Assembly: GCA_903862855.1 (NCBI GenBank)
Contig: CAIOZW010000136.1
Location: 1-34,214 of the forward strand
Source of the DNA: an uncultured Acidobacteriota bacterium
Lineage (GTDB): Bacteria; Acidobacteriota; Blastocatellia; RBC074
DNA length: 34,214 bases
Direction: 5' to 3'
Part shown: in pieces, positions 4,297 to 24,347 of the stretch
Layout of the letters: every line of letters starts with the position of its first letter
Numbering within the stretch: position 1 is the first letter of the stretch
Program-made: the position numbers and the translations under genes
The notes under the pieces: generated by a model
Seen by the model: the letters and a program-made list of their open reading frames with translations, nothing else
What the model was told of the DNA's origin: nothing
Databases searched by the model: none

Positions 4297-5133
4297 TCAG
4301 TTGACAGCGCGTACCTCGACCCGCACCTCGAGCTCCTCCCTCGCCGAGCCCTTGTAGATCCCCCGGGTCGGTGGAACATCCGCATAGTCCCGGCCAGTCG
4401 CGACGCGGACATACTCGGCGGTCTGTTCACAGTTGTGGGTCGGATCGAGTGACAACCACCCGTGATTCTCCAGATAGACATCGACCCAGGCATGCGAGGC
4501 CGCATTGGCAGGAATGGCTATCCCCGCCTCCTTCCGTTCATTGACGATCTGCGGACTGTAGAGGTATCCGCTCACATAGCGCGCTGGAATTCCCAGGCAC
4601 CTTGTCGCGGCCAGCATAAGGTGGGCGAAGTCCTGACAGACGCCGCGACCAATCTCCAGCACCTCCGGGGCCCGTGTCTTGACGTCTGTCGCCTCCGGAT
4701 CGTAGACCAGCCTTCGATAGATCGCATCCATCAGACCACGTGCCGTGCGGAGCGGATCATCCGCAACCAGGTGGCCACGCGCAAACTCACCAATCCGGCC
4801 ATTCCCCGGAGCGTAGTCGGTCGGCGCGAGAAAATCGTAGCGATCGAGTGGCGGAAGTTCCTGAAACTCCGGTCGGAATGAACTCGGAGTCTCGACGTCA
4901 CTGGATGCCGTGACCACCACCTGCTGGTGAGATTGCAGTGTATCGAAATGATGAACCTGATTACCGTAACGGTCGAGATAACTCATCACTTCACCCCGCG
5001 GTTCGGTGGTGAGGGAGAACCGGTAACACCGCTGGCCGGCAGTCTCGAGAGGTCGCAGTCGCATCTCGGTGTAGGCCTCATTGATCAACTCTGCGTAGCG
5101 AAAGACGGTCGTATGCCTGATCTGTAGTCTCAT
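4297..5133 (-). CDS. Transglutaminase-like cysteine protease-fold protein
   Basis: Residues 1-85 match the bacterial transglutaminase N-terminal beta domain (start [15 protein letters not shown]). Residues 150-235 are a transglutaminase core with a complete triad: C166 in [12 protein letters not shown]214 in [10 protein letters not shown] and D230 in LSLDPTHN. Such proteins catalyse peptide-bond hydrolysis or acyl transfer. With no signal peptide it should be cytoplasmic. At 278 residues it has the usual length for this family. It is the last gene of a three-gene minus-strand operon, starting 30 bp after the alpha-E gene. In many bacteria this trio is conserved, often with the proteasome-like peptidase Anbu, and has been predicted from comparative genomics to synthesise, conjugate or remove a peptide. 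Function here is inferred from that context; the family call is secure. Confidence 0.93.
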
Positions 5134-5163
5134 CTTTGTAAATGGTTAAATGACGTACCAATG

Positions 5164-6171
5164 CTATTGCTGCTGTTGCTGGGCAGGCTGCTGGCTCCGG
5201 CCCGGGAGAATCACCTGCGTGTTGAAGAAGGTGCGGGTAATGTCGTCTCCAACCAGGTTGATACGCAGAAGCAGCCCGTCGAGAAAGGGATGCATCCGGT
5301 GGTCGAGGATCTCTTCGATATTGAGATAGTCGAGATCGGCGCAGATGCGACCGATCTGCCGCTGCGGATTGTTGAGCTGATGGGGCTGCCGAACCGCGTC
5401 GCTGCCGGCAATTCCGGAGATCGAGTTGATGGAACGAAGTGCCCGGTTGAGACAGAACCCGACCGCCCGCGGAAACTCCTGGTCGAGCAGCAGGAACTGT
5501 GCGACCCGCCCAGACTGCAGCACCGAGGCTCCGGTCTTGCGGAAGGCTTCAAAGGCACTGCAGGAACGCAGGAGGACGATCAACTGCAGCGAGGCTTCCG
5601 GCCCCTCGGTCAACTGGTTGACTGCCGCATACTTGACGTCGAGCGTCCGGATTGTCTTGTCCGACCGCTCCATCATTTTGCCCAACTGAATGAACTCATA
5701 CCCGTCTCCGTGGGTCATCGTCTCGGCAGTGATACCCTGAAAGGCCCACGACCCGTAACGGATCTGGTCAAAGAATTCATAAGGGCCGCTCCGTCGTGCC
5801 TCATCCCGATCCAGATCGCGCACCAGAAAGTAGAGCCGGTTGAGGTTCTCCCACATCTCACTGCTGATCTGCTCACGGACACTCCGGGCATTCTCACGGG
5901 CCAGGGAGATACAGGTGGTCACGGCGTTCGGATTGTGCGGATTCCAGAGCAGAAATTCGCTCACGTTCCGGGCATTGTACTCCTGATAGCACTGCCGATA
6001 ACGCTCCTCATCGCCCGTTATCGCAATGATCGGCTGCCAGGCCGCTTCGGCCGCTTCGACCGGGGCATCGAGGAGGGAGTGAAAATTGACGGTCAGAATC
6101 CGCGTGATATCCTCGGCCCGTTCGACATATCGCGACATCCAGTAGAGTGCATCTGCTACACGAGATAACAT
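5164..6171 (-). CDS. Alpha-E domain protein (DUF403)
   Basis: All-helical protein of 335 residues, typical for the alpha-E family. It opens with the family hallmark [20 protein letters not shown], and further hallmarks are [18 protein letters not shown] and CLNRALRSI. It ends in a proline/glutamine tail (QQPAQQQQQ) that is probably disordered. No catalytic residues are known. The family occurs almost only with circularly permuted ATP-grasp enzymes and transglutaminases, as here, and is thought to be a partner or scaffold of the ligase. The gene lies 47 bp downstream of the ATP-grasp gene and 30 bp upstream of the transglutaminase gene on the minus strand, consistent with one transcript. The ATG at 6171 is the natural start. 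A frame of equal length on the opposite strand is a coding shadow. Confidence 0.93.
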
Positions 6172-6218
6172 TGATTTTTGCCTGTCCTTAGTTCTTCAGT
6201 CACGGCGTTGCCGCGTCG

Positions 6219-7685
6219 CTACTTTCCAAGCACCCAGGTGTCCTTGCTCCCGCCGCCCTGGGAGGAGTTGACAACCAGCGAGCCTTTTCGCAAGGCGACC
6301 CGCGTGAGTCCACCCGGCACGATCCGGACCTCTTCACCACAGAGAATGTATGGACGCAGGTCGACGTGACAACCGTACAGTTCACCATCCTGATAGGTCG
6401 GGTGACGACTCAGACTGACCGTTGGCTGGGCGATGAAGTTACGCGGGGCGATTCTGATCAGTTCGCGAAACCTATCCCGCTCTGCCTGTGTCGACTGTGT
6501 TCCAACCAGCATCCCATAACCACCGCTCTCATTGACCGACTTTACGACCAGGCTGTCGAGATGGTCGAGAATGTACTTCCGATCCTCATCACGCATCGCC
6601 AGATAGGTCGGCACATTCTGCAGAATCGGTTCCTCGCTCAGGTAGAAACGAATGATCTCCGGGACAAAGGCATAGACTGCCTTGTCGTCCGCCACACCCG
6701 TGCCGATTGCGTTGGCGAGAGTCACATTACCTGCCCGATAGGCGTTGAGCAGTCCCGAGACACCAAGCATACTGTCGTGATTGAAGGAGAGCGGATCGAT
6801 GAACTCATCGTCGATCCGTCGATAGATCACATCGACCGGTTTCAGCCCGCGCGTCGTTCGCGTGTAGACGTGATTGTCGTGAACCACCAGATCACGCCCC
6901 TCGACGATCTCGATCCCCATCTGCCGGGCAAGAAAGGTATGCTCGAAATAGGCTGAATTGTAGATGCCCGGCGTTAGCAGGACGACCGTCGGATCGGGCA
7001 TATCGTGCGGTGCGACTGAGCGGAGCGTCGCGAGCAGCTCCTGCGGATAGTGCTCATTCGGCCGGACCTCATACTTCTGGAAGAGATTGGGGAAGGTGCG
7101 CTTCATCGCCTGACGGTTCTCGAGCATGTAGCTCACTCCCGATGGTGAGCGCAGATTGTCCTCCAGCACCAGATACTCGCCATTCCGGTCGCGCACCAGA
7201 TCACTGCCGACGATGTGGGCATAGACATTGCGTGGCGGATGAATCCCGATCATCTCCCGCCGGAAATGCTTTGCGCCAAAGATCAGTTCGGGTGGAATGA
7301 GGCCCTCGCGAATTATCCGCTGCTCGTGGTAGATGTCGTGCAGGAACAGGTTGAGCGCCGTGACCCGCTGCGTCAGTCCCCGCTCGAGGAAATCCCACTC
7401 CTGGTGAGGAATGATGCGCGGGATCAGGTCGAAAGGAAAGATTCGCTCGATCCCTTCGTCCTCCTTGTTGTAGACGGTGAAGGTGATGCCCTGGTAGAGG
7501 AAGGCAATGTCCGCCTGTCTGCGCCGTTCTTCAAATGACTCGCGTGAGAGGTCGCGCAGTTGCTCATAGATCGGTTCATAATGACGATGGGGGTTGCTGT
7601 CACCCGCAAACATCTCGTCAAAGAAATCACCAATCTCGTAGCTGTTCTCGAGCAGCCAGGGTCTTTTGTCAGCTTGTTGGTTCAT
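6219..7685 (-). CDS. Circularly permuted type 2 ATP-grasp protein (DUF404/DUF407)
   Basis: Predicted ATP-dependent carboxylate-amine/peptide ligase with permuted ATP-grasp order. Family blocks are easy to see: [26 protein letters not shown] is the N-terminal section (about 70-95), followed by [56 protein letters not shown] (nucleotide-binding loop) and the C-terminal block ending [18 protein letters not shown]. The length of 488 residues is normal. I start at ATG 7685; a GTG two codons earlier is possible. It is the first gene of the ATP-grasp/alpha-E/transglutaminase operon and follows the addA-like gene on the same strand by about 140 bp, enough for a separate promoter, though no good one was found. 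The product is unknown; ligation of amino acids or a short peptide is the inference from the fold. Confidence 0.95.
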
Positions 7686-7823
7686 ACACACGATCAGGCC
7701 CCCACAGGCAGAGCCGCCTCAGACAATGGTCACAAAAGTGTTTGATCGCAGTGCAGATTGATGGAAAGAATCAAGTCAGTCAATAAGTAAGTGTTCCGAG
7801 ACTAGCGAATGTGATTCGATCCG

Positions 7824-10436
7824 TCAACCCGGCAACCAGGAATCGGTTGAATCATCTGCAGTTGGTGGCCGATGGAAGGGGATCGTTTCGGCCAATATTC
7901 CGGCATTTTCGAGACCAGGAATAAGTTGACCCGGCAGATCTCCACGCAGATCGGGGGCTGAGAGGACTACTCTGTCCCTGGCTCTTGTCATTGCCACATA
8001 GAGCAGGCGCCGTAATTCGGCTGCCTCACGCTTCTTCTGGGCAGCCGCAAGCCAGGAGTAGAGGACCGGCAGACTGCCGGCCCGCTCGTCATCATCCTCC
8101 GACTCCTGGGATACGTCAGTCTCATCGGTCCCATTGTTCTGCAGGGAGAGGGCAATCCCCACCTGCGGATCGAAGTGGACCGCTGGTCGACTGGGCATCC
8201 GATTGAAGCTGAGGTCGGGCACGATGACCACCGGCCATTCAAGTCCCTTTGCGCTGTGAATGGTGAGCATGGAGACCGACTCTCCAGCCTCGAGCGGAGG
8301 GCGGGGGATGGATACCTGGCAATCGATCAGCCTCTTCAGGCGGCGCCAGAGAGGAAAGATCTCTCCACCGTATGTTCTCTCCCCGTCCCGTACCCAATCC
8401 AGAAAAGCCTGCCAGTCAGCCAGTCTCCGTCGTGCATTGGGAAGGCCGGCGAGCACGGCCGAATATCCCGTCAGCCGATCGGCCAGTCGAAGCAGCATCT
8501 CCGGACTCTCCGTTCCCCGTCGATCGAGCAGGCTCTGCAGAATGGCGGCGGCATGCCTGATCTCCCCAGCGCTCGAGGTTGCGAGGTGGCTCCACCAGCC
8601 AGCCTCTTTGACGCGCTGCTCCGCCTCGATCTGCAACTGCAGGTCGCTGATCGCAAAGAAGGGGCTGCGCAGAATCGCGACCAGCGCGAGATCATCTCCT
8701 GGATTGGCCAGAAAGCGGATCAGCGCGATCTGATCCAGGGCCTCCCTGGTTCTCAGCAGATCACCTCCACCCATATTGGTCGAGGGAATATTTACGGCTG
8801 CAAGAGCCTCCCCAAATATCTCGAGTGGATGCCAGGTTCGCGAGAGGATGGCGATATCAGCAGGAGTAATGGGTCTGGTCAGTCCGGTGAGGCGATCGTG
8901 AACGGCCAGCCGCTCATCGAGCATCTGGCGGATGATCGACGCAATCGCCCCGGCCTCTCTCTGCTGTCGGCTTTGTCTCGTGGATCCCTTGACCGTTTCG
9001 ACGGAGAGAAAGCGAACGTAGGGTGGTCCGGCAGGTGGCACGTCGCGCAGCGCCTCGAGATGCCGGTGCTCATCCGGCTGGACTGTCTCGAAGACTCTGT
9101 TCAGAATGCCGGTCAGCGCCGCGTGGCTGCGAAAGCTGATGGTTAGCTGGTGGTTCGAACCGCCGGAATTGACGATCTTCTCGCTGAATTGACGGAAGAC
9201 GGCCACTTCAGCCCGTCGAAAACCATAGATCGACTGGTTCTCGTCCCCGACAATGGTCAGACTCGCCTCAGCCGTGAGCCGCTCGATGATATCGGCCTGA
9301 ATCTGACTGGTGTCCTGAAATTCGTCGATCAGAAAGGCACGCCAGCGACGACGGTAATAATCACAGACCTTATCTGACTGAACGGCCCGCCGCGCTCCGG
9401 CCTCGACTCCGGCGTAGTCGATCAGCCTCGCCGCCGTACGCGCCTGTCGAAGACTGGCCTGGAGATAATTGAAGGCCTGGTTGAGCAGTGGGATGATCCG
9501 CGCCAGCTCCAGATCCGTCGCAGTGATGGTGAATACCTGCCGGGTTGTTTCAATCTCCCGGGCAATTGCACGAAGGCATTTGAGGGCTGCTTTGACCGTG
9601 TCGAATCCCCCGTCAGGCCAGCCCTTCACACTTCCGCCACGGAGGTTAAAGCTGCCGATCTGCTCAACCAGGTCTGCCCGTCCGGCCAGATCGGTCTTGG
9701 CACCCGAGGTCAGGGTCATTGTCAACTCAAGGACACGACGCCGAAGCTCCTCGATGGTATCACCCTTTCGCCCTGCATGACTCTTGAGCGTACTGATCGA
9801 GTCGGCCCACTCTGCTCCGTTGATCAATCGCTCGAACTCAGACTCGGTGGCCTGCCGTCCGATGGCGGCCCAGAGTTCAACCAGTTTCTCACCATCCTCT
9901 CCGTACTGGAGAGCTGAAGCAAAGGCCTGCTCTGCAGTCACCGGATCGGCGAGCAGTCTGGTCAAGACCGTGCGGAGCAGCGAGAATGGAATTGACTCGT
10001 AGATTTCCGGCAGCACACCATCGAGCGAGTGTCGGTCGAGAGCCGCGTTGATGAGGTCCGGGCTGATCAGCTTGTCGCTGCTCTCGTTGAGTATCTCAAA
10101 TGACGCCGGCACACCCGATTCACGCGGATGATCACGGCAGATTCGTGCACAGAGTGAATCGATCGTCGTGATCGGGGCTGCTTCGATCCCGGCCAGAAGA
10201 TCATCCCGGTCAGGCAATCGCTGCGCAACGATCTGTCTGACTCGTGACCGCAACTCGGCCGCGGCACGTCGGGTAAAGGTTATCGCGACCACTTCGAGAG
10301 GTGACAAGCCCTCCTCGACAAGATGAAAGAGATACCGTTCGGCAAGCAGATGTGTCTTGCCGGTTCCGGCTCCAGCCGTCACGGCAATGCTGGAACGGGC
10401 AGTGATCGCCGCCCTCTGATCGACAGTCAGGCTCAT
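7824..10436 (-). CDS. addA: UvrD/AddA-like superfamily 1 helicase lacking the C-terminal nuclease
   Basis: ATP-dependent 3'-5' DNA translocase of the RecB/AddA branch. Motifs in order: Walker A TAGAGTGKTHLLAERYL (K27), Walker B FLIDEFQDTSQ (D371, E372), motif III GDENQSIYGFRRAEV, motif IV-like LTISFRSHAAL, motif V MLTIHSAKGLEWPVVIVPDL and motif VI LYVAMTRARDRVVLS (R818). The chain stops about 50 residues after motif VI, at residue 870. Typical AddA subunits are around 1,200 residues and end in a PD-(D/E)XK nuclease, which is absent here. The sequence simply reaches a stop codon, and no nuclease remnant appears in the 130 bp that follow. The start ATG overlaps the stop of the AddB-like gene by 4 bp (ATGA), so the two are translationally coupled and probably form one complex for double-strand-break processing. 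Confidence 0.92.
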   Translation of the reverse strand: MSLTVDQRAAITARSSIAVTAGAGTGKTHLLAERYLFHLVEEGLSPLEVVAITFTRRAAAELRSRVRQIVAQRLPDRDDLLAGIEAAPITTIDSLCARICRDHPRESGVPASFEILNESSDKLISPDLINAALDRHSLDGVLPEIYESIPFSLLRTVLTRLLADPVTAEQAFASALQYGEDGEKLVELWAAIGRQATESEFERLINGAEWADSISTLKSHAGRKGDTIEELRRRVLELTMTLTSGAKTDLAGRADLVEQIGSFNLRGGSVKGWPDGGFDTVKAALKCLRAIAREIETTRQVFTITATDLELARIIPLLNQAFNYLQASLRQARTAARLIDYAGVEAGARRAVQSDKVCDYYRRRWRAFLIDEFQDTSQIQADIIERLTAEASLTIVGDENQSIYGFRRAEVAVFRQFSEKIVNSGGSNHQLTISFRSHAALTGILNRVFETVQPDEHRHLEALRDVPPAGPPYVRFLSVETVKGSTRQSRQQREAGAIASIIRQMLDERLAVHDRLTGLTRPITPADIAILSRTWHPLEIFGEALAAVNIPSTNMGGGDLLRTREALDQIALIRFLANPGDDLALVAILRSPFFAISDLQLQIEAEQRVKEAGWWSHLATSSAGEIRHAAAILQSLLDRRGTESPEMLLRLADRLTGYSAVLAGLPNARRRLADWQAFLDWVRDGERTYGGEIFPLWRRLKRLIDCQVSIPRPPLEAGESVSMLTIHSAKGLEWPVVIVPDLSFNRMPSRPAVHFDPQVGIALSLQNNGTDETDVSQESEDDDERAGSLPVLYSWLAAAQKKREAAELRRLLYVAMTRARDRVVLSAPDLRGDLPGQLIPGLENAGILAETIPFHRPPTADDSTDSWLPG

Positions 10437-13153
10437 TCCTTCTCCTCCTCTTCGTGCACAGAATCGAAACCGGTCTTTCTTCCCAGTCGCTGTCCGCGCC
10501 GACAGACCATTTCCAATTCGCAGTATTCACAGGCCTGGCCCGCCACATCTGGGGCGACTGCAAAGTCACCCTCTGCCAGTTTCTGCCTGACCGACCCGAC
10601 AAAACCATCCAGTCTCTCGCTCTGATCCGTCTGTCGCCGGACCAGATTCTTCCGTGTCGAGAGTGAATAGTAGCGGCCGGTGACCCTCTGTCCAGGGAAG
10701 AGCTGCTGGCCGGCCGCTTCAATGTAGATTGGCAGTTGCAGGTCGAGCTTCAGCCTTCCCGATCCATCATTGGCGCCCCGGGGAAAGTAGCGGCCAGACT
10801 TGTAGTCGATCATTTCGATCCCTTGCGGAGTCCGGTCGAGACGGTCGATCCATCCCGTGACCCGGAGTCCACGCCAGAGTGCGTCGAACCGCACTTCATT
10901 ACCAATGACCGTCGCCTCCTTTGCCAGGAAGTGCTCACTCCTGATGGCCTCCTGCAGCCGGTTGAGTATCTGATTTCGCTGGGCCGGCCAGGCCGGGAAC
11001 TTGCAGAGCGGATTGTCGGGATCATCAGCCGCCGCATCGAGGGACTCTGCGAGTCTGCTCAGCGCCCACTCGCGCACCTCACCCGGAGAGGTTTCATCAG
11101 GAAGCCCCTCCAGTGCCAGCTCGAGGGTGCGGTGGAGAAGTTGCCCGTACTGCCGCGCGGTCAACTCGGCCGGTTGTTCACCATCATCCTCAATACCCAG
11201 AATGTAACGGCTGAACCACTGGAATCGACACTGTCCGAAGCTGGTCAGCTGCGAAGCGCTCCAGACCCGGGCACTGGCGTCCAACCCCCTTCCGGTAATT
11301 CCATCGTATTCGTCCTGAAACGCAGCGAGTTCGCGCCATCGCTCGATCGAGAGGGCCCGGCGAATATGACCACTCAGTTGATCGTCAGGTCGTGTTCGTT
11401 CCGGGTCAGCCCGCCGCCTCTCCTCGAGGCTTATCGTCGCAGCGTCACTGCCGGAGTGCAGCTCGATTCGCTCGAAGTTGTGATTGGCGATCTTACTGAA
11501 GAGTGCGGTGGGGATGGTCACCTCGTGATCCTTCATCCGCGGCATACTGAAGGTGAGCGAACCGGTCGCCGCCGCCAGAGCGCTGAGAATGGTCAGCTGC
11601 TCGTCGCGAACCAGACTGTCCGCCGTCTCGATCGGATAACCGGCGGAGAAGAGCCTTCGTCGCTCGTAGAGATCGAGGATCTCACCATCGGAGATCGGTC
11701 GGGGCAGACTTCCCTCGACCATGCCGACGACGAAGATATGCTGGTACTCCGATCCGGCAATCATCTCTGGCTCGAGCAGCTCGAGGCCGGGTGTGGTCTC
11801 CGGTGGCGCCACCCGCACTGTTGCAAGAAGTTCGACGACTTCACTCGCAAAGAGCCTGCCAGCGATCGACTCTTCGCCACTCAACCAGACCTGATCGTCG
11901 AGTGCCAGTCGCACCCGTTCACTCAACGCAAGGCCGGTTGAATCGAGCCGGGGCCTGATCTGGTCCACTGCCGCGACCAAGATGGCGACCCAGTCTCGTC
12001 GGGCCATCTCGACCGGTTCATCCGCATCACCAAGCCATGTGGGCCACGGGGTGCCGGGCGCAGCGAGACAGTTGCGCCAGGAGGCAAGGTTGTCCGGACG
12101 GTGCGCGAAGACTATGTTCAACCGCTCTTTTGGCAATCCTCCGCTCAGGGTATGGTTGAGAAATGCCAGTGCTGGCTCATAGCTGAACCCGGACCCGATC
12201 ATCTCCACCATCAGTCTCACCCAGGATCTGAAACGGGAGCTCCCCGGTGGTTCCTCCTCCGGCAGCGAGACAGCTATCCCATACTCCCGGCCAATGGCCT
12301 GAAGCGCCGGGCCGTATGTCGCCATATCGGTTGTCAGAATGGCCATCTCCCCGAGCCCTACTCCGCTGGCCGCCAGCCTGCCGATCCTTCGCAGAGTTTC
12401 ACGCACCTCCGTATCGACGGTCGAGGCAGTGAATGCGGTGACTCCATCACCGGCCGCACCACCAGCCACAATCCGGCAGGCCCGTTCCCAACCGGAGACT
12501 ACCGGTGATTTGTCGCAAGCCTGGACGATCTCCCAGCCAAGCCGGGAGAGTTGGTCGATTGCCTTCCGGGTCGACTCAAGGATCGGCTCGGACCCACCGG
12601 GCAGGATGATCTCGCTGCCATCACCTGCCAGCCGGTCGAGCAGTCCAATCTCATCTCTCCGGAGTCGGAAGAACCCCCTCACCACGAGCGTTGACCTTGC
12701 CTGACCGTTAGCCTCTGCGACCGCCGCTGCTCGCCAGAAGAGTTCCCCCGAATCGACCAGTGAACCCGCCCGCAGCCGTTCTCTGTAAATTCCGGTAACC
12801 TGCGCGAGCATCCTGATCCGCTCCTCCGGATCATCAGTGAGCTCTTCTGGCCCAATCCCAGTCCGCAGCAGCGTCTCGACGCTCTTGCTCAACTGAAGGA
12901 CCAACTCGCCTGCCTCGTCTGGCGTCAGCTCCGGGCAGACCGACTGAACGCCATCCCGCAGGAGACGCTTTCTGGTCAACCTTGAGGCGATCTCCTCTCC
13001 TGCCTCCCGCAACTGGATGATCGCCAGATCTTCGAGGGTCACCGCTCTCCCTTCGAGACCGCTGGCAGCTCTGCGGTGCGGAACGACGAGGATCTCTCCA
13101 GAGCGGCTTGCTCTCTCCCTCCGGATCTGGTGCGTGAAGACTCTTCGGCTCAT
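10433..13153 (-). CDS. addB: AddB-like subunit with Fe-S PD-(D/E)XK nuclease
   Basis: The N-terminal two thirds form a degenerate helicase-like region beginning EILVVPHRRAASGLEG, with no Walker A GxxxxGK[ST] and therefore probably no ATPase. The C-terminal third is a RecB-family nuclease: GWIDRLDRTPQGIEMIDYKSG contains D783 and K785 of the PD-(D/E)XK site, followed by LDLQLPIYIEAA. An iron-sulfur cluster is indicated by C642 (SFGQCRFQW) plus C875, C878 and C884 (CEYCELEMVC), as in AddB. I start at ATG 13153, with GGGGAG 12 bases upstream; an in-frame TTG at 13201 has no ribosome-binding site. The protein is 906 residues long. Paired with the nuclease-less AddA-like gene, it would supply the only nuclease of the complex. 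Divergent from the ADP-ribosylglycohydrolase gene. Confidence 0.88.
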   Translation of the reverse strand: MSRRVFTHQIRRERASRSGEILVVPHRRAASGLEGRAVTLEDLAIIQLREAGEEIASRLTRKRLLRDGVQSVCPELTPDEAGELVLQLSKSVETLLRTGIGPEELTDDPEERIRMLAQVTGIYRERLRAGSLVDSGELFWRAAAVAEANGQARSTLVVRGFFRLRRDEIGLLDRLAGDGSEIILPGGSEPILESTRKAIDQLSRLGWEIVQACDKSPVVSGWERACRIVAGGAAGDGVTAFTASTVDTEVRETLRRIGRLAASGVGLGEMAILTTDMATYGPALQAIGREYGIAVSLPEEEPPGSSRFRSWVRLMVEMIGSGFSYEPALAFLNHTLSGGLPKERLNIVFAHRPDNLASWRNCLAAPGTPWPTWLGDADEPVEMARRDWVAILVAAVDQIRPRLDSTGLALSERVRLALDDQVWLSGEESIAGRLFASEVVELLATVRVAPPETTPGLELLEPEMIAGSEYQHIFVVGMVEGSLPRPISDGEILDLYERRRLFSAGYPIETADSLVRDEQLTILSALAAATGSLTFSMPRMKDHEVTIPTALFSKIANHNFERIELHSGSDAATISLEERRRADPERTRPDDQLSGHIRRALSIERWRELAAFQDEYDGITGRGLDASARVWSASQLTSFGQCRFQWFSRYILGIEDDGEQPAELTARQYGQLLHRTLELALEGLPDETSPGEVREWALSRLAESLDAAADDPDNPLCKFPAWPAQRNQILNRLQEAIRSEHFLAKEATVIGNEVRFDALWRGLRVTGWIDRLDRTPQGIEMIDYKSGRYFPRGANDGSGRLKLDLQLPIYIEAAGQQLFPGQRVTGRYYSLSTRKNLVRRQTDQSERLDGFVGSVRQKLAEGDFAVAPDVAGQACEYCELEMVCRRGQRLGRKTGFDSVHEEEEKE

Positions 13154-13236
13154 ATCTATATTTGACTCCCCATCCGCTTCCTCTTTCGGGCCCACCGGCA
13201 AGGTCTGATTGCTTGACCATCAAAGGGCCAGAACAC

Positions 13237-19891: not shown

Positions 19892-22813
19892 ATGATTACC
19901 AGAAATCTGAAGTTCCTTGTTATTCTATCCGCTTTGGTTGTCCTCGGCTGGTTCCGGTCGATGCCAGTCAGTTCGGCCGTCCAGTCTGAAGAGCCACCGA
20001 TTCGGTTCGGGCGCGATATTCTGCCGATTCTCGCCGCCAACTGTCTCTCCTGCCACGGACCGGATGAGAGAAACCGCAAGGCGGGATTGCGACTCGATCT
20101 CGAAGAGACGGCAAAGGCACCGCGTCGGGCCGGGACTCCCGTCAAGCCAGGTGATCCGGAGGCGAGTCTGATCATCGCCCGCATCACGAGCGCTGACCCT
20201 GATCTGGTCATGCCTCCCCCGTCCTCACACCGCAATGTAACGGCCGAGCAGGTGAAGCTGCTGCGGCGGTGGATAGCCGCCGGTGCCCCGTGGGGGCTCC
20301 ACTGGTCGTTCGAGCCGGTGGTTGCGCCGGCCATCGCCCGGACGAAGAGCCATCCGATCGACCAGTTGATCGACAGCGAACTTGCGGCAAAGGGGCTGCA
20401 GCGAAGTCCGTCTGCCGCACCACAGATTCTGGTCCGGCGCCTCTGGCTCGATCTGGTCGGGCTTCCTCCGGCACCGGAGGTCGCTGACCGCTTCGCCGCC
20501 AGCCCGACTCCGGCGGCCTGGGAGAGGATGGTCGATGAGCTTCTTGCCAGCCCGCGCTTTGGCGAGCACTGGGCCCGAATGTGGCTCGATCTCGCGCGCT
20601 ATGCCGACACCAAAGGTTACGAGAAGGATCTCGGCCGCACCGTCTGGCCATATCGTGACTGGGTCATCGATGCCCTCAACGCTGATATGCCGCTCGACCG
20701 CTTCACCACCGAACAGCTTGCCGGCGATCTGCTGCCAAATCCTGACCAGTCGCAGACCATTGCTACCGCCTACCATCGCAACACCATGACCAACGATGAG
20801 GGTGGAACCGACAACGAAGAGTTCCGGGTGGCCGCCGTCAAGGATCGCATTGACACGACCATGCAGATCTGGATGGGGCTGACCATGGGGTGTGCGAAAT
20901 GCCATACCCACAAGTATGACCCGATCTCCCACGAGGAGTATTACCGTTTCTTTGCCATCTTCAATCAGACCGAAGATGCTGACCGTCCTGATGAGGCACC
21001 GACTCTCGAGATGGCCACTGCTGACGAGAAGGAGCGTCGACAGCAGTTGAAGTCGAATATCGACGCGCTCGAGAAGACGCTGCCGGCGTTCGACCGGCCG
21101 GTCGAGACACCCGGATGGCGGACTCTCTCGATCGGTGAAGTTGTCTCACGTGGCAAGGCGACCGTAAAGATCGAGCCTGACCAGTCCGTCACTGTCAGCG
21201 GAACCAACCCCCCGGAGGAGACTCTCGAACTGACCGTCGCCCTTCCCGCCGGCGAACATACGGCTTTCCGGCTCGAGGCCCTTCCCGAGAAGCAGCCCGG
21301 CGGGCAGTTTACACTTGGGCGTAACAACACGACCGGGAATCTGGTCGTCTCCGAGGTTCGGGCCATGCTCGATGAACGTCCTGTCGAGTTCTCCCGGGCG
21401 AGGGCCGACTACTCCGAGCCTGATGGTGACATTGCACGTGCAATCGATGGTCAGGAGATGACCGGCTGGTCGATCAAATCACGCGGAAGAGAGCCGCACA
21501 CGGCCATCTTCGAGCTTGCCCGTCCACTGCGTCTCGAGACTGCGGCGAGGCTGCGACTCACCATCTCGCACCAGAATGGAGACTCCTCCGCCCTGCGCCG
21601 CTTCCGGCTTCTGACCACCGGTCTCGAGGCCGGTAAGATTGATATCCCCACCTGGACCGCCGAGATACGTCGTAATATCGACGCACTCGCTGAGGCCTAT
21701 GACTCCTTCAACAAGTTCAATGACCGGATAGTCAAGCTGCCGATCATGCGTGAACTTGACGCAGACAAACAGCGCACGACGAGGATCCATCTTCGTGGCA
21801 ACTTCCTTGAGCCCGGCGAGACGGTTACGCCGGGCGTTCCAGCTTCGTTCCATCCATTTCCTGCCGGTGCACCGGTCAACCGGCTTGGGCTCGCTCGCTG
21901 GCTGGTCGATCGACAGAACCCGCTCACACCGCGCGTCTGGGCCAATCGCGTCTGGGCGAGACTCTTCGGAACCGGTATTGTCGAGACCGAGGAGGATTTC
22001 GGTGCGCAGGGCACCTTCCCAACCAATCCGCAACTCCTCGACTGGCTTGCTGCCACCTACCGTGATCAGGGCTGGTCTCTGAAGAGGCTGCTCAAGACGA
22101 TCGTTCTCAGTGAGACCTATCGCCAGGCATCAGAGGTCACTCCTCCACGTCAGCAGGCCGATCCGCGTAACCTTCTTCTCTCCCGCGGGGCTCGTTTCCG
22201 CCTCAGTGCTGAGTCGATTCGTGACCAGGCTCTCAGCATCTCCGGATTGCTCTCTTCAAAGATGGGCGGACCTCCGGTCATGCCTCCTCAACCGGCTGGC
22301 CTCTGGCGCTCCACCTACAATGGTCTGAAGTGGGTCGATTCCGAGGGCGATGATCGTTATCGACGGGCGGTCTACACCTATCTTAAACGGACGACGCCAT
22401 ACCCTTCGATGATCACTTTCGATGGGGGAAGCGGTGAGGTCTGCCAGATCCGCCGCATCCGGACCAATACTCCTCTCCAGGCGCTGGTGACGCTCAATGA
22501 CCCGGTCTTTCTCGAGGCCGCCGCCGGCCTGGCCGGGCGGATGGTCAGCGCTTCCTCCGTCGATTCACAACGCGTTTCTCACGGGTTGCGACTTGCACTG
22601 ATCAGAAAGCCGACCGAGGCCGAGATTGCTCCAATCGTCTCACTCTACCGTGATACCCTGAAGCATTTCGCTTCATCACCTGACAAGGCCGCCGCATTGG
22701 TCAGGGCGACCCGTGCCGAGAGTATGGCAGGAAGCGACCCGGCCTCATTTGCCGCCTGGATTGTTGTCGCCAATACGATTCTCAACCTCGATGAAGTTCT
22801 GATGAGGCACTGA
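19892..22813 (+). CDS. PSCyt1-DUF1549-DUF1553 exported cytochrome-like protein
   Basis: A signal peptide (about 1-29) precedes a planctomycete-type cytochrome C domain with a CxxCH motif (C51, C54, H55 in NCLSCHG). DUF1549 follows (about 130-350), with LVRRLWLDLVGLPP, FGEHWARMWLDLARYADT and a second CxxCH (C334, C337, H338 in CAKCHTHKYDP). A central beta-rich segment (about 420-600) resembles a carbohydrate-binding discoidin-like module. DUF1553 covers about 660-960 (RLGLARWLVDRQNPL, VWARLFGTGIVETEEDFG). At 973 residues it has the usual size. The start has CAGGAG nine bases before the ATG. This architecture is common in Planctomycetes and some Acidobacteriota and almost always sits beside a DUF1501 gene, as here. 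The function is unproven; periplasmic redox-linked carbohydrate processing is the common inference. It probably shares a transcript with the dgo genes (36-bp gap). Confidence 0.93.
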   Translation: MITRNLKFLVILSALVVLGWFRSMPVSSAVQSEEPPIRFGRDILPILAANCLSCHGPDERNRKAGLRLDLEETAKAPRRAGTPVKPGDPEASLIIARITSADPDLVMPPPSSHRNVTAEQVKLLRRWIAAGAPWGLHWSFEPVVAPAIARTKSHPIDQLIDSELAAKGLQRSPSAAPQILVRRLWLDLVGLPPAPEVADRFAASPTPAAWERMVDELLASPRFGEHWARMWLDLARYADTKGYEKDLGRTVWPYRDWVIDALNADMPLDRFTTEQLAGDLLPNPDQSQTIATAYHRNTMTNDEGGTDNEEFRVAAVKDRIDTTMQIWMGLTMGCAKCHTHKYDPISHEEYYRFFAIFNQTEDADRPDEAPTLEMATADEKERRQQLKSNIDALEKTLPAFDRPVETPGWRTLSIGEVVSRGKATVKIEPDQSVTVSGTNPPEETLELTVALPAGEHTAFRLEALPEKQPGGQFTLGRNNTTGNLVVSEVRAMLDERPVEFSRARADYSEPDGDIARAIDGQEMTGWSIKSRGREPHTAIFELARPLRLETAARLRLTISHQNGDSSALRRFRLLTTGLEAGKIDIPTWTAEIRRNIDALAEAYDSFNKFNDRIVKLPIMRELDADKQRTTRIHLRGNFLEPGETVTPGVPASFHPFPAGAPVNRLGLARWLVDRQNPLTPRVWANRVWARLFGTGIVETEEDFGAQGTFPTNPQLLDWLAATYRDQGWSLKRLLKTIVLSETYRQASEVTPPRQQADPRNLLLSRGARFRLSAESIRDQALSISGLLSSKMGGPPVMPPQPAGLWRSTYNGLKWVDSEGDDRYRRAVYTYLKRTTPYPSMITFDGGSGEVCQIRRIRTNTPLQALVTLNDPVFLEAAAGLAGRMVSASSVDSQRVSHGLRLALIRKPTEAEIAPIVSLYRDTLKHFASSPDKAAALVRATRAESMAGSDPASFAAWIVVANTILNLDEVLMRH

Positions 22814-22856
22814 TCCAAGGTGTGATAGCACGAATATCGTGAAAGAGAGAGCAATT

Positions 22857-24347
22857 ATGAACGAAATTACCCGCCGCCATTTTTTTGAGAGAACCGGACT
22901 CGGTCTGGGAGCCATGGCTCTGCAGTCGATCCTCCTGCGTGAGACTCCCGCCCAGTCTGGGAACCCGCTTGCTCCACGCCGGCCGATGCACCCTCCCCGG
23001 GCCCGCAGCGTCATCTATCTCCACATGGCGGGTTCACCATCACAACTTGAGCTCTTCGAGCATAAGCCGGAACTCGAAAAGCTTCATCTCAAGGATGCTC
23101 CACCATCGTTCCTCGCCGGGAAGAGGTTTGCCTTTATCAAGGGTGTGCCAAAGATGCTCGCCAGCCAGTTCCGCTTTGCCCGGCACGGTGAGAGCGGGCA
23201 ATGGGTCAGTGAACTGCTGCCCAACTTTTCACGGGTTGCTGACAAAACGACCATCATCCGCACCGTCCACACCGATCAGTTCAATCACGCCCCGGCCCAG
23301 CTCTATATCCACACCGGCTCACCACGCCTCGGGAATCCCTCCCTTGGTTCCTGGATCACCTATGGTCTCGGAAGTGCGAATGAAGACCTGCCAGGTTTTG
23401 TCGTACTTCTCTCAGGGGGGAAGACTCCAGATGGTGGCAAGTCGCTCTGGGGGTCGGGTTTCCTGCCCAGTGTCTACCAGGGAGTTCAGTGTCGGACGGC
23501 TGGTGATCCGGTTCTCTATCTCAGCAATCCCGAGGGGATCGATCGTGAAGTCCGCCGGCGCACGCTCGATACGCTGGGCCAGATGAATCGTGACGCTCAG
23601 CAGCGAACGGGTGATCCCGAGACCCTCACCCGCATTGCCCAGTATGAACTGGCCTACCGGATGCAGGTCTCAGTCCCGGCGGCCATGGACATCTCTCGCG
23701 AACCCCAGCACATCCTTGACCTCTACGGTGCCCGTCCCGGTTACGTCTCGCCGGCGGAGACCGCCGACGATCCGCGCATCATCTACAAGGGCGATGACCC
23801 AACCTTCGCGAACAACTGTCTGCTTGCCCGCCGCCTGGTCGAGAATGGCGTACGCTTTGTCCAGCTCTACGATTGGGGATGGGATCATCATGGATCATCA
23901 CCGGGTGAGAGTCTCGATGAGACTCTTCCGATCAAGTGTCGCCAGATCGATCGGGCCATCTACGGACTACTCACCGATCTCGAACAGCGCGGTCTTCTCA
24001 AGGATACTCTTGTTGTCTGGGGAGGTGAGTTCGGCCGCACGCCCATGATGCAGAACAATGTGCGCACCGAACTCCGGAAGGGGTTTATCGGGCGCGATCA
24101 TCACACCAATGCCTATACGATGTGGATGGCCGGGGGTGGCGTCAAACCCGGCCTTCAGTACGGGCAGACCGATGAGTTTGGGTACTTTCCTGTCGAGAAT
24201 CCGGTCAGCATCCGTGACATCCAGGCAACCATCGAACACCTCGTCGGGCTCGATCCCTATCGGTTCAACTATCCATACCAGGGCCTGAACAACCGGCTCA
24301 TCGGGCCAACCGAGGAGGGAAAGATCCTCGAGGGGATCCTCGCCTGA
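22857..24347 (+). CDS. DUF1501 protein with Tat signal (sulfatase-fold relative)
   Basis: The N-terminus NEITRRHFFERTGLGLGAMAL is a twin-arginine signal, so the protein should be exported folded. The body carries DUF1501 landmarks: SVIYLHMAGSPSQLELFEHK, GSWITYGLGS, FVVLLSGGKTPDGGK, VQLYDWGWDHHG and LVVWGGEFGRTPMMQ, with HHTNAYTMWMAGGGVKPG near the end. DUF1501 belongs to the alkaline phosphatase/sulfatase superfamily by fold, and the conserved Asp/His positions in the WDHHG and GEFGRTP segments could bind metal. The ATG at 22857 follows GAGAG by six bases; a GTG at 22839 is disfavoured because it would extend the Tat n-region. The length of 496 residues is normal. It follows the DUF1553 gene by 43 bp, its standard partner, and ends 6 bp from the convergent sulfatase gene. 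Confidence 0.93.
   Translation: MNEITRRHFFERTGLGLGAMALQSILLRETPAQSGNPLAPRRPMHPPRARSVIYLHMAGSPSQLELFEHKPELEKLHLKDAPPSFLAGKRFAFIKGVPKMLASQFRFARHGESGQWVSELLPNFSRVADKTTIIRTVHTDQFNHAPAQLYIHTGSPRLGNPSLGSWITYGLGSANEDLPGFVVLLSGGKTPDGGKSLWGSGFLPSVYQGVQCRTAGDPVLYLSNPEGIDREVRRRTLDTLGQMNRDAQQRTGDPETLTRIAQYELAYRMQVSVPAAMDISREPQHILDLYGARPGYVSPAETADDPRIIYKGDDPTFANNCLLARRLVENGVRFVQLYDWGWDHHGSSPGESLDETLPIKCRQIDRAIYGLLTDLEQRGLLKDTLVVWGGEFGRTPMMQNNVRTELRKGFIGRDHHTNAYTMWMAGGGVKPGLQYGQTDEFGYFPVENPVSIRDIQATIEHLVGLDPYRFNYPYQGLNNRLIGPTEEGKILEGILA

Follow-up and report, generated by a model that had tools for sequence, protein, structure and literature searches.

An AddAB-derived helicase–nuclease pair of Blastocatellia that has lost the AddA nuclease

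Results

A coupled addB–addA pair on a Blastocatellia contig

The window considered here (the whole 34,214-nucleotide stretch of DNA) belongs to a 4.6-Mb draft assembly of 517 contigs from the class Blastocatellia, and carries an addB-like gene that overlaps an addA-like gene on the reverse strand (Table 1). The addB-like open reading frame spans 10433..13201 with a TTG start, and TTG 13201 is open as an alternative to ATG 13153, the start on which the first-pass annotation, made from the letters alone, based its AddB residue numbers. An ADP-ribosylglycohydrolase gene diverges upstream of addB. After addBA, genes for CP_ATPgrasp, Alpha-E and transglutaminase proteins occupy 4297-7691, in an order common to both members of the genus, and the other neighbour scanned encodes a TonB-type receptor. 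Given these neighbours, a reading of the locus as a defence island was rejected. No RecD was found among the scanned neighbouring genes, and the PADLOC matches to GajB in the window reflect generic UvrD helicase similarity. Elsewhere in the window, 19892-24347 encodes a PSCyt/PSD1 protein and then a DUF1501 protein, a pairing common in Planctomycetes.

Table 1. Features of the addB–addA locus and of the corresponding locus in the genus mate.
Feature	Coordinates	Strand	Size or motif	Description	Basis
addB-like gene	10433..13153	-	906 aa from ATG 13153	inactivated helicase-like scaffold and C-terminal Fe-S PD-(D/E)XK nuclease	
addA-like gene	7824..10436	-	870 aa	complete SF1A helicase, nuclease domain absent	
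overlap of addB stop and addA start	10433..10436	-	4 bp, ATGA	coupled genes	sequence
PD-(D/E)XK nuclease domain of AddB	10499..11263	-			PF12705 match in whole-genome search
catalytic residues of AddB	10799..10807	-	D783-Y784-K785		
Fe-S ligand of AddB	11228..11230	-	C642		
Fe-S ligands of AddB	within 10502-10531	-	C875, C878, C884		
motif I (Walker A) of AddA	10353..10376	-	AGAGTGKT		motif scan
motif VI of AddA	7974..8006	-	LLYVAMTRARD		motif scan
gap 3' of addA, up to CP_ATPgrasp gene	7692..7823	-	132 bp	no nuclease remnant	
CP_ATPgrasp gene	6219..7691	-		circularly permuted ATP-grasp; downstream neighbour, not part of the system	
genus-mate locus (G149, L107)	CAIKMY010000445.1			uncultured Acidobacteria bin	

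AddA retains its motor and ends where the nuclease should begin

The first-pass annotation had described the AddA-like protein as an SF1 helicase that stops about 50 residues past motif VI without a PD-(D/E)XK domain. This description held: the motifs scanned lie at residues 21 (I), 53 (Ia), 371 (II), 396 (III), 724 (V) and 811-821 (VI), 49 residues remain C-terminal of motif VI, and Pfam matched the helicase domains UvrD_N and UvrD_C with no match to a PD-(D/E)XK domain in the protein. The annotation had named a second nuclease site in this protein, or a frameshift or assembly error at 7824, as grounds for abandoning its reading. Neither Pfam nor a profile built from 23 AddA nuclease domains recovered a second site. 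The profile was run against six-frame open reading frames of 25 aa or more from the window and from seven other loci and uncovered no hidden nuclease; within the window it matched only the nuclease of AddB itself. Downstream of the addA stop, three frames read across the gap to the CP_ATPgrasp gene contained no nuclease-coding frame. We therefore reject a frameshift or a hidden nuclease beside addA. An AlphaFold2 model of the protein (mean pLDDT 88.4) aligned with residues 9-960 of B. subtilis AddA (4ceh_A; Z 37.8, rmsd 3.7, 819 residues aligned), indicating that the protein stops where the nuclease should begin. Deinococcus UvrD tied on score (Z 38.1), yet with 591 residues aligned and an rmsd of 10.8.

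AddB retains an Fe-S nuclease

Pfam returned PDDEXK_1 alone for the AddB-like protein, at 124 bits. The residue numbers previously assigned to its catalytic pair (D783, K785) and to its four cysteine ligands are correct, and H674, D770 and Q806 complete the site. The protein was also correctly said to lack a Walker A motif, but this is not special to the pair, since none of the 54 compact AddBs described below has one, and we do not count it as a distinguishing trait. The AlphaFold2 model (mean pLDDT 81.6) fitted best to B. subtilis AddB (4cei_B; Z 27.2, rmsd 8.6, 867 aligned), ahead of AdnA (6ppr_A; Z 20.4, rmsd 10.2, 596 aligned) and RecC (1w36_F; Z 18.5, rmsd 11.2, 787 aligned). F161 of the window AddB aligns with the Chi-contacting F210 of B. 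subtilis AddB in a nearly invariant F/Y column, so that this position is aromatic; the region of F68 in the B. subtilis protein has no sequence alignment with the window AddB.

A search of the whole window genome with PF12705 found two proteins, AddB and a 292-aa Fe-S PD-(D/E)XK protein on contig C322. As the only other such protein found, it is a candidate if a cut in the 3'-ended strand were supplied in trans, a role that a general exonuclease could also fill. We consider supply in trans quite unlikely. The C322 protein sits in a cluster of its own with a UvrD-type helicase and RecJ, and this cluster also occurs in the genus mate and in two members of the family (G157, G158) in which no AddA was found, so that it does not track the truncation. 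The same distribution led us to reject the protein as a detached AddA nuclease. In this second helicase–nuclease cluster (L049 1812-5580, contig C322:4000-9611) the C-terminal part of the helicase lies at the contig end, the 292-aa protein starts in a 4-bp overlap and RecJ follows; the order is similar in L234, L227 and L228.

The pair is nearest to AddAB

In searches against the PDB, a profile of 34 AddB relatives had B. subtilis AddB as its top match (3u44_B, 8.8e-24) and a profile of 26 AddA relatives had B. subtilis AddA (3u44_A, 7.2e-99). B. subtilis AddAB was likewise the top Foldseek match for both subunits; sequence identity to it is low, at 14-22%. Together these sequence and fold comparisons point to a pair nearer to Bacillus AddAB than to AdnAB or RecBCD, the families with which the first-pass annotation had proposed an alignment. 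Its earlier identification as an AddAB-type pair with a nuclease in AddB alone is borne out by Pfam, PDB profiles and folds alike.

The window pair shares with B. subtilis AddAB (PDB 3u44, 3u4q, 4ceh, 4cei, 4cej) an SF1A motor in AddA as the one motor, an AddB that is an inactivated helicase-like scaffold with a C-terminal Fe-S nuclease, and adjacent addB and addA genes. It differs in that AddB has no Walker A and falls about 260 residues short of the B. subtilis protein, and in that AddA, whose model ends at AddA residue 960, has no PD-(D/E)XK nuclease at its C-terminus. Because this second nuclease is a defining feature, the pair is an AddAB-derived variant and not a member of classical AddAB. 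The single motor, which the first-pass annotation had listed as part of the variation, does not set the pair apart, since B. subtilis AddAB itself has a single SF1A motor (available excerpt of PMC4027173).

The best NCBIfam equivalog models were missed by a wide margin for both AddA (225.8 bits against a cut-off of 707.65) and AddB (38.7 against 903.7), and as compact relatives that have the nuclease also fall below these cut-offs, the failure reflects the subfamily. RecBCD resembles the pair in working with one nuclease per complex, unlike it in that this nuclease is located on the motor subunit RecB and not on the scaffold subunit. AdnAB also consists of two UvrD-like subunits, each of which, AdnA and AdnB, carries a nuclease domain, in contrast to the one nuclease of the window pair.

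The truncation is shared by the genus

A search of 149 genomes from the phylum gave matches in 29 with the AddA query and in 4 with the AddB query. AddA was present in two of the 11 genomes of the order, that of the window and its genus mate (G149). The genus-mate AddA (805 aa) is 47% identical to the window AddA and also ends just past motif VI, and the locus has the same gene order with the same genes downstream of addBA. The survey of the clade that the first-pass annotation had suggested thus found the AddA nuclease missing in both members of the genus (2/2).

This agreement bears directly on the idea that an assembly error or frameshift had split off the nuclease domain. The window does come from a draft in 517 contigs, but it contains no nuclease remnant, a separate genome with the same gene order agrees, and one of the nuclease-less Nostocaceae AddAs described below (G370) is encoded on an 8.6-Mb contig. 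For practical purposes this explanation is refuted.

The last residues of the genus-mate AddA are encoded by a 7-bp tandem array. At the end of this shortened addA lies a gene for a 23S rRNA-intervening-sequence protein (G149 L051 4617-5304), which is bracketed by two 7-bp tandem arrays in opposite orientation.

Within the class, a survey of 162 genomes found 10 genomes of genus g4 with a compact pair whose AddA nuclease is present; relatives of g4 fall in Pyrinomonadaceae and Blastocatellia. In the AddB tree, Pyrinomonadaceae-type genomes form the sister group of the window and its genus mate (97, starred branch).

The compact AddAB subfamily mostly keeps both nucleases

Compact (short) AddBs in the named-genome scan, which comprises the best 80 of 102 loci, were mostly cyanobacterial. 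The 54 family members counted, with scan loci again from the best 80 of 102, come from Blastocatellia, cyanobacteria and a few other groups; all 54 have the four Fe-S cysteines, and the nuclease motif reads D-Y-K in 53 and E-Y-K in one. The scan patterns contained C642 and D770, and AddBs that had lost these residues would escape them; 12 Blastocatellia AddBs came from a profile search free of this bias. An AddA match was obtained in 40 of the 41 genomes searched from the scan list (best 80 of 102 loci).

Compact AddAs scoring at least 650 bits kept the nuclease in 44 of 48 cases and lacked it in four (scan loci: best 80 of 102). The totals of 48 AddAs and 54 AddBs were taken once identical sequences had been discarded. 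Outside the 48 lie 25 rows below 650 bits, including contig-cut rows and the internally deleted G473, together with a fusion to PglZ (G298) and genomes with fragmented or no AddA matches. All 44 nuclease-bearing AddAs have the catalytic H, D, D-x-K and Q. Given a nuclease in 44/48, its presence was most likely ancestral in the compact family, as judged from this distribution. The Pyrinomonadaceae-type Blastocatellia and cyanobacterial pairs (e.g. L109, L111, L116) belong to the same subfamily as the window pair and have the same short AddB without Walker A, and differ from it in an intact AddA nuclease with four cysteines.

The four AddAs without a nuclease are those of the window, of its genus mate and of two near-identical Nostocaceae, Amazonocrinis nigriterrae CENA67 (G297) and G370. 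Both Nostocaceae proteins stop within the linker that, in their full-length sisters, immediately precedes the nuclease.

The four-cysteine pattern is also seen in the AddA nucleases of compact pairs (L053, L111, L113 and others); the last cysteine is unaligned in L056 and L058, and three are unaligned in L126. Compact AddAB with a nuclease-bearing AddA may on this pattern contain two Fe-S nucleases. In B. subtilis AddAB an Fe-S nuclease is known in AddB only.

A nuclease-bearing Nostocaceae AddA (L243 8453-12169, G462) has a C-terminal BrxF domain (154 bits), which links compact AddAB to BREX defence; L217 and L218 have a C-terminal extension like it, judged by eye alone. In Nostocales LEGE 12452 (L225 1355-5349, G298) a shortened AddA helicase is fused in frame to PglZ (670 bits) and followed by BrxA (288 bits), a case of an AddA gene becoming joined to a BREX cluster. 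A further Nostocaceae AddA (L222, G473) has a frame of 549 aa that lacks most of the helicase, and matches model positions 5 to 1069 with a large gap inside.

The nuclease has been lost repeatedly

A second AddA subfamily provided another case. In family f2, three genomes of three genera (G009, G291, G296) encode AddAs of 940-962 aa, measured as stop-to-stop frames, in which Pfam detected no nuclease; the best NCBIfam score of the G009 protein is of AddA type. The f2 AddB genes lie on contigs other than those of AddA, and the one that was checked, from G009, keeps both Walker A and the nuclease.

We built an unrooted AddA tree from the helicase part only, with rows cut at the 5' end excluded. 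Of its 66 rows, 63 have a known nuclease state, and the domain is present in 56 and truncated in seven. The truncated state requires three changes, all forced by starred branches: the window with its genus mate (99), the Nostocaceae pair (100) and f2 (100). A single clade of the window, its genus mate and the Nostocaceae pair was rejected by the AU test (p 0.0014). The separation of f2 rests on starred branches, around which the tree program warns of long branches. Since the nuclease is present in 56/63 rows, loss and not gain is the natural reading, though the tree is unrooted, and the AddA nuclease would thus have been lost at least three times.

For the short Nostocaceae pair, dN/dS was 0.173 for AddA and 0.222 for AddB, and two pairs of full-length AddA gave 0.132 and 0.150; these values point to purifying selection on the short Nostocaceae AddA. 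The f2 pairs gave 0.178 and 0.152, with high dS. Between the window and its genus mate the values were 0.32 for AddA and 0.41 for AddB, at a near-saturated dS of about 1.6 that gives them little weight. Because these window values rest on near-saturated dS, and the AddB branch of the window is long (1.62, as against 0.83 for the genus mate), some relaxation of selection is possible in the window lineage.

These data can be set against a reading of the locus as a decaying gene, in which loss of the nuclease was accidental and the whole complex is in the course of disappearing. Such a course would fit the fast-evolving window AddB, the nine other members of the family without an AddA match, and the genus-mate AddA tail, where 7-bp repeats beside the 23S rRNA-intervening-sequence gene put a repeat element at the break. 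It accords poorly with frames that remain open and motifs that are kept between the window and its genus mate at 47% identity, and with independent losses followed by purifying selection. Decay is therefore disfavoured in general, and improbable as an account of the pair, although the case against it is weakest for the lineage of the window itself.

Discussion

The loss of the AddA nuclease in this AddAB-derived enzyme is real, genus-wide and recurrent. We interpret the pair as a working end-processing enzyme, AddAB-derived, that has lost the AddA nuclease, retains that of AddB alone and would resect mainly the 5'-ended strand; we give this reading a probability of about 0.6.

The expected course of the reaction follows from the B. 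subtilis enzyme. The available excerpts describe a single SF1A motor in AddA that moves on the 3'-ended strand (PMC4027173, PMC4824097), two nucleases, each lining the exit channel of its own strand (PMC4027173), and a division of labour that assigns the 5'-ended strand to the AddB nuclease and the 3'-ended strand to that of AddA, which cuts it up to Chi (PMC4824097). By analogy across the low sequence identity given above, the AddB nuclease of the window pair likely acts on the 5'-ended strand, a prediction already made in the first-pass annotation and in agreement with the excerpt of PMC4824097. The AddA motor would draw the 3'-ended strand through the complex and release it uncut, while the 5'-ended strand, once unwound, would pass the AddB nuclease and be cut. 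Such an enzyme would work permanently in the state to which classical AddAB switches only after Chi, producing 3' overhangs for RecA, and destructive degradation of both strands would be weak or absent. According to the excerpt of PMC5443536, a two-hybrid assay places the contact of RecA in the N-terminal (helicase) part of AddA, so that RecA loading need not be lost along with the AddA nuclease.

The single AddB nuclease might instead cut both strands, as that of RecB does in RecBCD, leaving an enzyme that is still destructive and needs hotspot control. RecBCD operates with one nuclease, and hotspot control could persist here, given the aromatic F161 at the F210 position. The RecBCD nuclease sits on the motor subunit, however. 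In AddAB the two nucleases occupy separate exit channels (excerpt of PMC4027173), and the domain that remains in the window pair is on the AddB side. We regard cutting of both strands as unlikely, and mainly 5'-strand resection as the better account.

A nuclease-less AddA is not unheard of. The available part of PMC4224334 reports that addA of six isopod Wolbachia strains has a premature stop by which the nuclease domain is removed completely, and gives Ka/Ks values of 0.175-0.193, indicating purifying selection, for the first part of the gene. The window addA resembles this case in that the whole domain is missing; it differs in that the Wolbachia region after the stop is still alignable, whereas here no trace of the domain remains in a genome of 4.6 Mb. 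Citing Amundsen 2009, the same excerpt states that loss of the nuclease domain significantly reduces AddAB exonuclease activity and that repair is still able to operate without it. In the open-licence literature, of which our coverage is incomplete, we found no paper that treats single-nuclease AddAB as recurrent or describes it in the present lineages.

These data allow us to propose, tentatively, that AddB-nuclease-only AddABs form a stable functional class of repeated origin, in Blastocatellia genus g1, Blastocatellia family f2, Nostocaceae and, as reported, Wolbachia. Its members would be natural machines for Chi-independent resection of the 5'-ended strand only, having given up the destructive, phage-degrading mode. 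If this is true, 5'-strand cutting by AddB is the indispensable nuclease activity of AddAB and 3'-strand cutting by AddA is dispensable. A dual-nuclease AddAB relies on Chi to end its cutting of the strand needed for recombination, and a natural AddAB without the 3'-strand nuclease would be a direct probe of what Chi control serves. It raises the question of whether an enzyme can give up destroying DNA and still serve recombination, for which several independent losses and their dual-nuclease sisters make a ready comparative set.
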